DNA of 64,000 bases, from the NCBI GenBank assembly GCA_028696075.1, contig JAQVHS010000002.1, forward strand, positions 99,701 to 163,700, written 5' to 3'. Shown here one piece after another: positions 7,963 through 55,565 of the stretch. Position 1 is the stretch's first letter. Each line of letters begins with the position of its first letter. The stretch comes from Candidatus Gastranaerophilales bacterium (lineage in GTDB: Bacteria; Cyanobacteriota; Vampirovibrionia; Gastranaerophilales; JAILCC01). The notes under the pieces are model-generated. The model saw nothing but the letters and a program-made list of their open reading frames with translations, was not told the DNA's origin and did no database searches. The translations under genes were made by a program, and so were the position numbers.

Positions 7963-9021
7963 TTACATCTGTTTGAAGGCGTTTTTGATGGATTTTTTGT
8001 AATCGGATTTTAAAATACCTTTTTCTGTAATTATACCCGCTATAAGCTCATTAGGGGTAACATCAAACGAAGGGTTTATGATATTTACACCCTGAGCGCA
8101 AATAGTTTTGCCGTTAATGTGGGTTACTTCCATAGGGTCGCGCTCTTCAATTTCAATTTCATCACCCGATTGAATAGTTGTATCTATGGTAGAAAGAGGG
8201 GCAGCTATGTAGAAGGGTACTTTGTGGGCTTTAGCCGCAAGTGCAACGGTATAAGTTCCTATTTTATTAGCGGTATCACCGTTTGCGGCAATCCTGTCTG
8301 CACCGACTACTACTACATCTATCATTCCTTTTTTCATAAAGTATCCGCACATACCGTCTGTAATAAGAGTTGTGGGTATATTATCCTCAATAAGTTCCCA
8401 GGTGGTTAGCCTTGCGCCTTGTTGTCTTGGCCGGGTTTCATCAGCAAATACCTGAATGGTTTTGTCTTTTTCAAACGCCGAGCGCACTACTCCTAATGCA
8501 GTGCCATATCCTACCGTTGCTAAAGCACCTGCGTTGCAATGCGTTAAAATGGTAGCGCCTTTGGGAATTATGGCTGCGCCGTTGTCGCCTATTTTTATAT
8601 TAATGTCTATATCTTCAAGCTCCAGCTTTTTTGAATTTTCCCATATTTTCTTTACCAAATCTTCTACAGGAAGATTTGAGTTGGCTTTTGCAAAAGTCAT
8701 TTGTTTATTAACCGCCCACTCAAGGTTCACCGCTGTTGGTCTTTGGGAAATCAGATATTGTGCTATGTCCGACATTTTATCAAGAAATACATTCATATTT
8801 CTTTCTTTTTTATTTTCTATTGCACCCAGTGTAAAGCCATGTGCGCCTGAAATTCCTATTGCGGGAGCGCCCCTTACAACCATTGTTTTGATTGCGTTTG
8901 CAACGTCTTTGTATGTTTTTAATTCTACGCTTTTATATTCATAAGGCAGCAGTGTCTGGTCAATTAATATAAGCGATTTATCCAACAGTGCTACAGGTTT
9001 AATATTCGATTTTAATGCCAT
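7963..9021 (-). CDS. mtnA: S-methyl-5-thioribose-1-phosphate isomerase
   Basis: 352 residues, full length. Methionine salvage enzyme converting methylthioribose-1-phosphate to methylthioribulose-1-phosphate. The catalytic Cys is in THCNAGALATVGYGTALGV and the catalytic Asp in VVVGADRIAANGD; TVVRGAPAIGISGA is also typical (here MVVRGAPAIGISGA). It belongs to the eIF2B-alpha-like superfamily, but the catalytic pair argues for MtnA. Methylthioadenosine from polyamine synthesis (speD is at 23837) would feed this pathway. Other mtn genes are not in the window. Confidence 0.95.
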   Translation of the reverse strand: MALKSNIKPVALLDKSLILIDQTLLPYEYKSVELKTYKDVANAIKTMVVRGAPAIGISGAHGFTLGAIENKKERNMNVFLDKMSDIAQYLISQRPTAVNLEWAVNKQMTFAKANSNLPVEDLVKKIWENSKKLELEDIDINIKIGDNGAAIIPKGATILTHCNAGALATVGYGTALGVVRSAFEKDKTIQVFADETRPRQQGARLTTWELIEDNIPTTLITDGMCGYFMKKGMIDVVVVGADRIAANGDTANKIGTYTVALAAKAHKVPFYIAAPLSTIDTTIQSGDEIEIEERDPMEVTHINGKTICAQGVNIINPSFDVTPNELIAGIITEKGILKSDYKKSIKNAFKQM

Positions 9022-9153
9022 GTCCTCTTCCCTTTTTCCCCATCTATGATTATTGTTCTTTCAAATATGATTGTTTGTCAATATGACAGATAGCAAAAAA
9101 ATCTTTGTCGGGCTTTAATATAAGTCTGTATAGCCTGTTTAAATTTTAACATT

Positions 9154-10689
9154 ATGCTTATAACACCTGTATCGATTGCAAAAAATAATTCTTTTCACCG
9201 TCAAGCCGAACATTCTAAAATATCAGAACGGGAATTCCGGCAGCAATATACTTATGCTCCTGCATTTTCAGGTCAGCAAAAGATATATTCTGATAAAATT
9301 AATGCATTAAAGCTTGAAATGCAGACTTATCCTCGGGATATTGAGTATCGCAGAAATCTACTTGAAAATGCAGGATTAAACCCTGATTTATATTACAGGT
9401 TAAGATCTGTCATAGGCAGCGGAGAAATTAAAGATATTATGGCTGATTATCAGCAAAAGCCCGAAGTTTACAGTGTTGGTGAAAATGATATTAATATTGC
9501 CGACAGGACAATTCGGGCTAATTTGCATATGCATACGGTAGCGTCAGACGGATTTTTAACGATTGAAGAGTTGTTGGGAAAAGCGAGCCTTTACGCTGAT
9601 GAAGCTGCTAAAATTCACAAAGATAAAGCCCCTTTTACTATTGCAATAACAGACCATGATACTACAGAAAGTGCAGAAGAAGCGATTAAATTGATTTTTG
9701 CAAATCCCGATAAATATAAGAATTTAAGAGTGATTTTGGGCGCTGAAATTACAAGCTTTAATAACATAGCTGCTCATATTAAAGATAAACCCACCTGCAC
9801 TCACATCCTTCTATATGGTATAGACCCTGGTGAAAAAGACTTTAAAAACTTCATAAATCATTATAAATCTTTAAAACAAACCTTATCAGGACGTATGATA
9901 GATGATGTTAATGCTGTTTACAAAGAATTTTTTGATGAAGGAGATTTTTACAACATTAAACAATTAAGAGAACAATACACTCCCGTTAGAAAAAATATTG
10001 TTGGAATTTATAACTACGTTAATGATTATGTGGTGACCAAAATGCTGGTTAAAGAGTCTGTGCTGAAAAATCCTGAATTGAAGCAAGAACTGGAATATCA
10101 CGGTATTGATACAACGGTAGACGGTTTTATGAAAGAGATGCAGGAGTATTTTAATATTTATGATAAAAATAATAAACTTAGAAAACCCACAGCTGCTATA
10201 ATTGAGGTAATAAGTATGTTTACTGTAGCACCTCAGGATACAATCAGAGATATGGTAGCGTCTGTTCCTTTGTCTCAAAAAGCCGAGGATTGTATAAAGC
10301 AAATCACAAAAAATCTGGAAAAATACAAAATAACTTTTGAGCCTCAGTATCATTATGTTCCTAAAATTCAAGATATTTATGCGGCGTTGCAGAATCAGCC
10401 TGATTCTCTTATCGGGCTTGCGCACCCTTTGGATTACGTGCAGAGGATTGAGTCTGATGATTTGAAGTATGAGGTTTTGGAAGAAGTTTATAAATATTTT
10501 AAGGAACATGCAAGGGATAAAGCCGCTTTTGCAGAGTCTTATTACCAAAGTTACAACGGGGCTTTGAGAGTTTTGCAGCATAAACCTGAAACTAAAGCTA
10601 TCTTAGACGAGCTTGGCAAAGCTTACGGCTTATATCAAACAGGAAGCGGAGATACACACAGGATAAATATTTTTAAGAGGTATTATTAA
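9154..10689 (+). CDS. PHP-domain metal-dependent phosphoesterase
   Basis: 511 residues. About 110 N-terminal residues include YAPAFSGQQK, the Phe-x-Gly-type segment shared with other proteins here. The PHP domain follows: NLHMHTVASDG (HxH plus SDG), ITDHDT, GAEITS, IGLAHP and TGSGDTH supply the metal ligands. A long helical insertion (about residues 250-400) separates the motifs. PHP proteins hydrolyse phosphate esters with a trinuclear metal site; the substrate is unknown. No clear Shine-Dalgarno precedes the ATG. A bidirectional terminator follows. Confidence 0.85.
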   Translation: MLITPVSIAKNNSFHRQAEHSKISEREFRQQYTYAPAFSGQQKIYSDKINALKLEMQTYPRDIEYRRNLLENAGLNPDLYYRLRSVIGSGEIKDIMADYQQKPEVYSVGENDINIADRTIRANLHMHTVASDGFLTIEELLGKASLYADEAAKIHKDKAPFTIAITDHDTTESAEEAIKLIFANPDKYKNLRVILGAEITSFNNIAAHIKDKPTCTHILLYGIDPGEKDFKNFINHYKSLKQTLSGRMIDDVNAVYKEFFDEGDFYNIKQLREQYTPVRKNIVGIYNYVNDYVVTKMLVKESVLKNPELKQELEYHGIDTTVDGFMKEMQEYFNIYDKNNKLRKPTAAIIEVISMFTVAPQDTIRDMVASVPLSQKAEDCIKQITKNLEKYKITFEPQYHYVPKIQDIYAALQNQPDSLIGLAHPLDYVQRIESDDLKYEVLEEVYKYFKEHARDKAAFAESYYQSYNGALRVLQHKPETKAILDELGKAYGLYQTGSGDTHRINIFKRYY

Positions 10690-54146: not shown

Positions 54147-55397
54147 TTACATAAAATTTTTGTATACGTCAGGCAGTTGACGCTCAGAGTGTGATTCTCC
54201 GGCTTTTAATCTTTTTGCTGCTTCTTCTTTGTCGTATCTGAATTTTGTGAAGAATCTTGAAACACCTGATACAAATAAACCCATAACCCCTATACTGAAT
54301 AAGAACGGTACTGATGTAATCAGAATTTTATTTTTGCAAAGTGTTTTAAATTCATCATTTATACAGGTTTTGTTTTTTGCGGCAAGATTTTTAGCTATTT
54401 CGCCAAGGTCTGCGAATTTTGGAACGCTTAAATCTTTGGCAATAAGATTTTTAAACCCTTCTTTATTTTTAAGCAGTGTTTTAAATCCTTTTTCCAATAA
54501 CTCACTGCCCGTAATTACATAAAAACCTACGAGCGGGAATCTGAACAATGTTTCAAGGAAGTTTTGTTTTCCCCTGTCCTTGGCGGATTTAAAGTACCCT
54601 GCGCCGCCTATAAGAACACAAGCTGTCAATTGACCGTTGCTTAGTGCTAGTTTACCGTTTCTTTCCGCAAAATCAAGGCTGAAGTATTTGTTAACAAATG
54701 CGGCTTTTTTAGGTGAACCGGCAAATAATTTATTTCCCGGTGCTAAAATGAATTCACCTATGTGTTTTAATACTTTGGAATTTTGACCTTTTTTAACCAA
54801 AAGCAAAGAAGTTGCCAGACATCCGCCAAATACAGCCGCTGCGCCCGCTATGTTTTTTATTGCACTGTTTTTAACTTTTTTCTGTCTTTGCTCGGTTTCG
54901 GTTTTATCTTTGTTAAGGTTTGCAATATTATTAAAATCCCCTTGCTTGAAAAGTTTTAAAGTAAAGAGATTTTTTGCAAATGTTAAAGAATATTCAAGCA
55001 GCGGGATTGCCATAGCTCCAAGCGCTATAGCCGCTTTTACAGGCATGATTTTGTCCGCGTTTTCTTTGGAAGTTGTTTTTACCAATTCTGTATAAGGAGT
55101 AGAAACCAAAGGTTTTAAGTTTTGTGCCAGTTTCTTGGAATAAATTTTTCTAAATACATTTTCGCCCAAAATTTTCGGGCAATAGTAAACTAAGAAACTT
55201 TCCGTAAGTTCTAAAAATGATGTTTCAGCCAGGTCTGCCCTGCTTCTTGCAAAAATAGCTTTGGGAGCAAGATTTGTAAGTGTATCCTGTGCAAATCTTG
55301 TGTTTGATAAATTCGAACCCGCTTCTTGTTTTATCAGGAATTTTGTAATCAATTTTGTTGTATATGGCAATTTATTTATTAAATTTACTGGTTGCAT
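54147..55397 (-). CDS. Trp-free membrane protein behind a Trp-codon attenuator
   Basis: 416 residues, no recognised family. Hydrophobic segments at about 120-145 (KAAIALGAMAIPLLEYSL), 183-205 (IKNIAGAAAVFGGCLATSL), 260-275, 290-305 and 363-390 (ILITSVPFLFSIGVMGLFV). Lys-rich, without a single Trp residue. C-terminus is charged (KEEAAKRLKAGE). The start lies 29 bases after the T run of the attenuator terminator at 55426-55463, so its transcription should depend on read-through. It has no visible link to tryptophan metabolism. Confidence 0.75.
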   Translation of the reverse strand: MQPVNLINKLPYTTKLITKFLIKQEAGSNLSNTRFAQDTLTNLAPKAIFARSRADLAETSFLELTESFLVYYCPKILGENVFRKIYSKKLAQNLKPLVSTPYTELVKTTSKENADKIMPVKAAIALGAMAIPLLEYSLTFAKNLFTLKLFKQGDFNNIANLNKDKTETEQRQKKVKNSAIKNIAGAAAVFGGCLATSLLLVKKGQNSKVLKHIGEFILAPGNKLFAGSPKKAAFVNKYFSLDFAERNGKLALSNGQLTACVLIGGAGYFKSAKDRGKQNFLETLFRFPLVGFYVITGSELLEKGFKTLLKNKEGFKNLIAKDLSVPKFADLGEIAKNLAAKNKTCINDEFKTLCKNKILITSVPFLFSIGVMGLFVSGVSRFFTKFRYDKEEAAKRLKAGESHSERQLPDVYKNFM

Positions 55398-55425
55398 TCT
55401 TAAACTCTTTCGTTAAATAATCGAC

Positions 55426-55463
55426 AAAAAAACAGCTTGCGCAAAAAAGTGCAAGCTGTTTTT
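55426..55463 (-). terminator. attenuator terminator (3:4 helix)
   Basis: AACAGCTTGC / GCAAGCTGTT stem, ten-base loop, flanked by A and T runs; could also work on the plus strand. Confidence 0.85.
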
Positions 55464-55484
55464 AAAAAACTGTTTTGTTAATAT

Positions 55485-55565
55485 TTAACGCCAACAAAAT
55501 CCGCTTGCACTGTTTGCAAGCCACCACCAAGAGTTATTTTTTTGATTTTGTTGTAAATTAATCAT
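55485..55565 (-). CDS. 26-residue leader peptide with WWW
   Basis: Starts MINLQQNQKNNS, then WWW, and ends LANSASGFCWR before TAA. AAGGAAA lies eight bases before the ATG. Four of 26 residues are Trp in an AT-rich genome, which is very unlikely by chance. The Trp codons directly precede segment 1 of the attenuator. Likely a regulatory leader peptide; an independent small peptide with its own terminator is the alternative. Confidence 0.65.
   Translation of the reverse strand: MINLQQNQKNNSWWWLANSASGFCWR

Follow-up and report, generated by a model that had tools for sequence, protein, structure and literature searches.

A probable tryptophan attenuator on a membrane protein gene of Gastranaerophilales and an apparent methionine counterpart on its paralogue

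Attenuators normally show what the genes that they control are for. What a tryptophan (Trp) attenuator serves when the gene behind it is not a trp gene is the question raised by one locus in the window, a 64,000-nucleotide stretch of contig JAQVHS010000002.1. The source genome (1.84 Mb, 21 contigs, 99.6% complete) belongs to the Gastranaerophilales (Melainabacteria), gut-dwelling relatives of the cyanobacteria, and its closest named relatives are Candidatus Gastranaerophilales and Gastranaerophilus metagenome-assembled genomes. The original prediction, made from the letters of the window, described a 26-residue ORF with a good Shine-Dalgarno sequence and three consecutive Trp codons, four segments forming mutually exclusive 1:2, 2:3, and 3:4 helices, and a strong terminator just before the gene of a 416-residue, Trp-free product that is not a trp gene. 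All of these features were confirmed on the minus strand (Table 1).

The leader ORF is predicted to be translatable, with a Shine-Dalgarno sequence, AAAGGAAA, about 10 nt upstream. The folding energy of the RNA is -48.2 kcal/mol, with a z-score of -4.3 relative to dinucleotide shuffles, and the 1:2 hairpin was also picked up by a scan for terminator-like structures. The U tract of the intrinsic terminator ends shortly before the start codon. A fourth Trp codon, W25, lies 3' of segment 2. The leader is present once in its own genome. The gene upstream encodes a sigma-70-type factor and those downstream, judged by sequence, encode ATP synthase subunits; neither is Trp-related. Rfam covariance models for the Trp leader, the T-box, and the SAM riboswitch gave no match in the window or at 20 loci.

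Table 1. Positions of the leader elements and the controlled gene in the window, and loci of related elements
Feature	Position or loci	Strand	Basis or remark
Predicted leader ORF, 26 codons, MINLQQNQKNNSWWWLANSASGFCWR followed by stop	55485..55565	-	Sequence reading and leaders of relatives
UGG UGG UGG, tandem Trp control codons, site 1	55521..55529	-	WW in 69/70 orthologue records
Segment 1, GCTTGCA	55515..55521	-	1:2 helix covaries
Segment 2, AGTGCAAGC, partner of 1 or 3	55503..55511	-	Covariation of 1:2 and 2:3
W25, second Trp codon, site 2	55491..55493	-	Leader alignment
Segment 3, GCTTGCACT; 2:3 is the antiterminator	55448..55456	-	2:3 covariation, constrained folding
Segment 4 and U tract, GCGCAAGCTGTTTTTTT	55442-55426	-	Sequence reading
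Terminator hairpin 3:4, AAAAACAGCTTGCAC-tttttt-GCGCAAGCTGTTTTT, and U tract	55426..55463	-	Covariation, constrained folding
Controlled gene, 416-aa Trp-free membrane protein	54147..55397	-	ATG at 55397
Met-codon leaders (MMMxMMM...RM-stop) before the clade B gene	L074, L076, L087, L092, L098, L102, L115, L118, L119, L154-L182
Near-perfect palindrome TGTATCGATATATCGATACA	L030, L031, L032, L035, L036, L038, L040, L042		Shortly before the leader ORF

The protein family occurs in 213 of 383 genomes of the order, and a sample of the phylum outside the order yielded nothing except two weak fragments. Clade A of the family comprises 70 orthologue records, which reduce to 65 distinct loci once apparent repeats are removed (L005-L009 seem to come from the genomes of L014-L018). 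A short ORF with WW or WWW lies within 340 nt before the gene in 69 of these records, or 64 of the 65 distinct loci, so the predicted leader ORF and its segments recur in relatives. Dinucleotide shuffling of the upstream regions produces such a leader in 2.3% of cases, and the paralogues have none (0/39). Conservation of the clade A leader spans three families in which the genes upstream are unrelated. The single exception, L103, has one W in its leader (MNNEMYKINKSWRSLT followed by stop).

Several leader subtypes can be distinguished. One ends in WWRL and has its stop codon inside segment 1. The long type, to which the window leader belongs, runs past segment 2 to a conserved ending, [FL][CS]W[RQH] and stop; the W of this ending is the fourth Trp codon noted above and is conserved in this large subtype. 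A third group has longer spacers. Between subtypes the RNA sequence has diverged and the pairing has been kept, and apart from the W codons and the pairing, peptide and RNA are poorly conserved.

Covariation was scored in an alignment of 22 long-type leaders, with each competing helix counted separately. Paired cells amounted to 83.8% for the 1:2 helix (covariation 0.340 vs. a shuffle mean of 0.184), 82.5% for 2:3 (0.329 vs. 0.187), and 90.8% for 3:4 (0.500 vs. 0.259), and none of 500 shuffles reached the observed covariation of any of the three. Sliding the partner by 1-3 columns, as a control, left clearly fewer cells paired in every helix. Each of segments 2 and 3 has two partners to fit (1 and 3 for segment 2, 2 and 4 for segment 3), so that a change must be passed on through all four segments, and such linked changes are the signature of an attenuator. 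These compensating changes, together with the conserved WW(W) codons, support the trp-type layout that had been predicted. Complementarity of 2:3 is significant against shuffles (p<0.05) in 75% of the scorable Trp leaders and in 65% of the scorable methionine (Met) leaders described below.

Folding without a ribosome gives 1:2 together with 3:4. For constrained folding, the whole stretch between the ribosome binding site and the ribosome was kept unpaired, which is a simplification. Placing the A site at W13, W14, or W15 exposes segment 2, and nascent RNA then folds into 2:3 (-15.7 to -16.9 kcal/mol). A ribosome placed at W25 or the stop codon covers segment 2, and 3:4 alone forms. The full transcript at equilibrium prefers 3:4 even with a ribosome at the Trp codons, and the switch must therefore be kinetic. 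Control by the E. coli trp leader is likewise kinetic. Both the positions of the ribosome and the direction of the response are inferred. When charged tRNATrp is scarce, the leader ribosome would stall at WWW and cover segment 1, and segment 2 would pair with the freshly transcribed segment 3 while segment 4 is still to come. This pairing would block the terminator and allow the membrane protein to be produced. With Trp in good supply, the ribosome would reach the end of the leader and cover segment 2, so that 3:4 could form and transcription would stop. The element is very probably a trp-type transcription attenuator that depends on the leader ribosome and controls a single gene in cis.

The dedication of the leader to this gene was assessed with a pattern combining the W codons and the first hairpin, TGGTGGNNNCTGTN{3,12}ACAGG. 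It has a single match in each of 69 genomes and none in the rest of the 286, and the reversed pattern used as a control has 1 match. By comparison of positions, 67 of the 69 matches lie directly upstream of a clade A gene; the two others, in G062 and G021, are probably chance matches. The pattern misses some subtypes, including the leader in the window, because segment 1 there is CTTGC. The scan of these 286 genomes revealed no regulon of leaders of this type. Because almost all matches stand directly before the clade A gene, the leader most likely serves that gene in cis and is dedicated to it.

By anatomy, the element belongs to ribosome-mediated transcription attenuation. It shares with the leaders of trp operons (E. 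coli trpL, rhizobial trpLE(G) including that of S. meliloti, and those of Corynebacterium and Streptomyces) a short ORF with tandem UGG codons, the exclusive 1:2, 2:3, and 3:4 helices, and an intrinsic terminator just before the gene. By its controlled gene, it is not a trp-operon leader. Unlike in those systems, the gene is neither a trp biosynthesis gene nor trpS and the host lacks trpA, many of the leaders extend across segment 2 and have another W codon close to the stop, and no Rfam family matches. Classical attenuators on single genes outside biosynthetic operons are known for Streptomyces trpS and leuS (PMC1262725). These share the arrangement with the window gene; however, they encode aminoacyl-tRNA synthetases, whose link to the amino acid is known. 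No report of attenuation in the Gastranaerophilales was found in the literature searched, mostly outside subscription journals. What is new is the target family, the order-wide conservation, the exchange of control codons between paralogues, and the conserved second control codon.

The controlled protein offers few clues of its own. An AlphaFold2 model from 52 sequences (pLDDT 90.6; an earlier model from 8 sequences was poor) is almost all helical, and hydropathy reveals three strong hydrophobic stretches only. No sequence relatives were found in Pfam, NCBIfam, or PDB sequences, and Foldseek searches with the pLDDT 90.6 model against PDB and the viral BFVD library returned no fold relatives at E <1e-3. 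In these searches, neither sequence nor fold places the protein in a known transporter or receptor family. No conserved partner gene was seen beyond small groups of loci (20 loci, the window, and two more), and no ATPase or binding-protein gene is a conserved neighbour in the neighbourhoods examined. The attenuator is the first clue to the function of this family, which is widespread in mostly uncultured gut bacteria and has no known relatives.

The Trp metabolism of the hosts narrows the possible roles. trpB (TIGR00263 above cut-off) is found in 128/367 genomes, and of 63 leader-bearing genomes included both in this survey and in that of the protein family, about 50 are without full-length trpB. 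trpA (PF00290) is absent from 22 of 24 leader-bearing genomes tested, including the window's own, whereas all 14 control genomes score with this model; trpS is above cut-off in 23 of the 24. Since the attenuator is kept in apparent Trp auxotrophs, control of Trp synthesis is unlikely. A leader of a trp biosynthesis operon was considered and rejected, because the downstream gene has no Pfam match, the genome's own trpB has no W leader, and trpA is absent. Trp attenuation can thus persist in organisms apparently unable to make Trp, so that trp-type leaders may be used to find genes for scavenging rather than biosynthesis. The genome of the window has a lone trpB beside a tyrosyl-tRNA synthetase-like gene (L114, C2:9000-28000, 8153-9454), probably for indole salvage in the absence of trpA. 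No W leader was found in this region, and no trpB locus convincingly bears one.

A sister clade carries the same design keyed to another amino acid. Clade B proteins (about 430-470 aa) are ~40-48% identical to the window protein, and at 38 of 39 loci their genes follow the same layout with runs of Met codons and then a terminator (for example, MQNNTMMMQMMMMQSLMSGGHCYADRMC followed by stop at L163). The exception, L112, has few Met codons upstream. Met-run leaders occur in 1.0% of shuffles and in none of the 70 clade A records, and neither clade carries the leader type of the other. The 2:3 helix of the Met leaders covaries (0.386 vs. 0.240, 0/500 shuffles); a 1:2 helix was sought in them and was not significant. 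From their sequences, the clade B leaders are apparent methionine attenuators. On a FastTree tree, a single change suffices for each clade (support 93 for A, 79 for B, and 100 for C), and thus leader type follows protein clade. Met-codon-rich leader peptides have been described mainly for Campylobacter jejuni and close relatives, namely MetL and CJsORF19 (MMYQMR), the latter before a D-methionine transport gene (PMC11955535). The leaders here share the Met-rich peptide, which in that one case is proposed to precede a transport gene, but they are order-wide, have the form MMMxMMM, stand before a paralogue of a Trp-controlled gene, and have a covarying 2:3 helix.

The composition of the proteins follows the leaders in part. 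Trp makes up 0.018% of clade A, 0.651% of clade B, and 0.59% of neighbouring ORFs, and Met makes up 0.70% of clade B, 1.38% of clade A, and 2.0% of neighbouring ORFs. Each of the two clades is therefore poor in its own regulatory amino acid. Clade C has no leader, yet it is Trp-poor (0.10%), which indicates that Trp avoidance is only partly specific. The absence of Trp is for this reason weak as a stand-alone argument, and the compositional case rests on the contrast of clade A with clade B and on the Met depletion of clade B.

The Trp and Met switches on sister genes point to a new protein family made at amino-acid shortage. In the case of the window, scarcity of charged tRNATrp most likely switches on the production of a solo membrane protein. 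Because the hosts apparently cannot make Trp and the paralogue carries a Met version of this switch, the protein may be part of a Trp-acquisition response, a role to which we give about an even chance; by analogy, the Met paralogue would probably help to acquire Met. The importer or surface protein made at Trp scarcity that the original prediction had put forward is accordingly favoured by the lack of a trp linkage, the absence of trpA, and the Met-leader sister family. The pair also illustrates that attenuator specificity follows gene duplication, and it predicts the nutrient served by each paralogue. A bolder proposal, which we regard as tentative and rather unlikely, is a new-fold family for amino-acid scavenging whose duplicates were re-keyed to different nutrients through the control codons of a two-site attenuator. 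The first site, before segment 1, would open the gene, and the second codon near the stop, W or M, would act as a second check that sharpens the threshold. In the Trp leaders, a ribosome paused at the second codon would mask segment 2 and so promote termination; the corresponding codon of the Met leaders lies too far downstream for such masking.

The attenuator may be real and its product may nonetheless have a general role in the envelope or under stress, or be a surface protein resembling a receptor, with Trp or Met starvation serving just as the signal. This reading is a substantial possibility that falls somewhat short of even. It draws on the lack of any fold or sequence match to a transporter, on the presence of only three clearly hydrophobic stretches, and on the lack of a conserved ATPase or binding-protein neighbour. 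However, two paralogues specifically keyed to two amino acids fit products that handle their own amino acid better, and the third clade, some members of which have Fur-box-like promoters, again suggests a nutrient signal.

The other alternatives concern the leader itself. A chance ORF that happens to precede an ordinary terminator belonging to the sigma-factor gene upstream has a practically negligible probability: the frequency of short WW ORFs in shuffled regions would permit it, but it is refuted by covariation and by conservation in three families whose loci have unrelated genes upstream. The window leader is not a chance feature. A leader acting mainly in trans, also considered in the original prediction, is disfavoured and very unlikely. 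A terminated RNA of ~140 nt with an ORF is expected, and the trp leader RNA and peptide of Sinorhizobium meliloti, rnTrpL and peTrpL, are reported to act in trans (PMC7298713); the WWW leader RNA here could in principle act on other genes as those rhizobial leaders do. Unlike in Sinorhizobium, leader and gene co-occur across genomes, with the pattern almost solely before the clade A gene barring the two probable chance matches, and the poor conservation beyond W codons and pairing is not that of a trans-acting RNA or peptide. Nascent-peptide arrest by free Trp, as in TnaC-type leaders with their conserved arrest peptide and Rho-dependent termination, would reverse the response and turn the gene on when Trp is plentiful. 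Although the shared endings, [FL][CS]W[RQH] and stop or LN-x(1-2)-WWRL and stop, could reflect conservation of the peptide, the tandem codons before segment 1, the intrinsic terminator, and the exclusive 2:3 and 3:4 helices form a starvation-type anatomy. Leaders of the same design swap W for M, and no arrest motif beyond W is fixed across subtypes. Arrest of this kind is highly improbable, and starvation-driven attenuation in cis is the preferred reading.

Further features vary among the leaders. A second control codon near the leader end is conserved as W in Trp leaders and as M in Met leaders, and the nucleotides CGAATGTG are nearly invariant in Met leaders and conserved as such; an RNA polymerase pause motif is one candidate reading of them. 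The terminator is weak in one genus group. The Trp leaders of L030, L038, L040, L043, and L106 have longer spacers, in most cases with a strong 2:3 helix and a weak U tract, and perhaps act by translational instead of terminator control. L043 has a later CTTGTG...CACAAG pair near the Shine-Dalgarno sequence of the gene. In one genus group, the palindrome listed in Table 1 lies between a promoter-like TTGACA and the WW leader and is probably the operator of a repressor. In clade C, TGATAATAACTATCA-like palindromes resembling a Fur box are found at the promoters of L124-L127, and that of L126 is one position off TGATAAT-N-ATTATCA. Other clade C genes (L128-L131 and L183-L185) follow a tatC-like gene, assigned by eye from its sequence.
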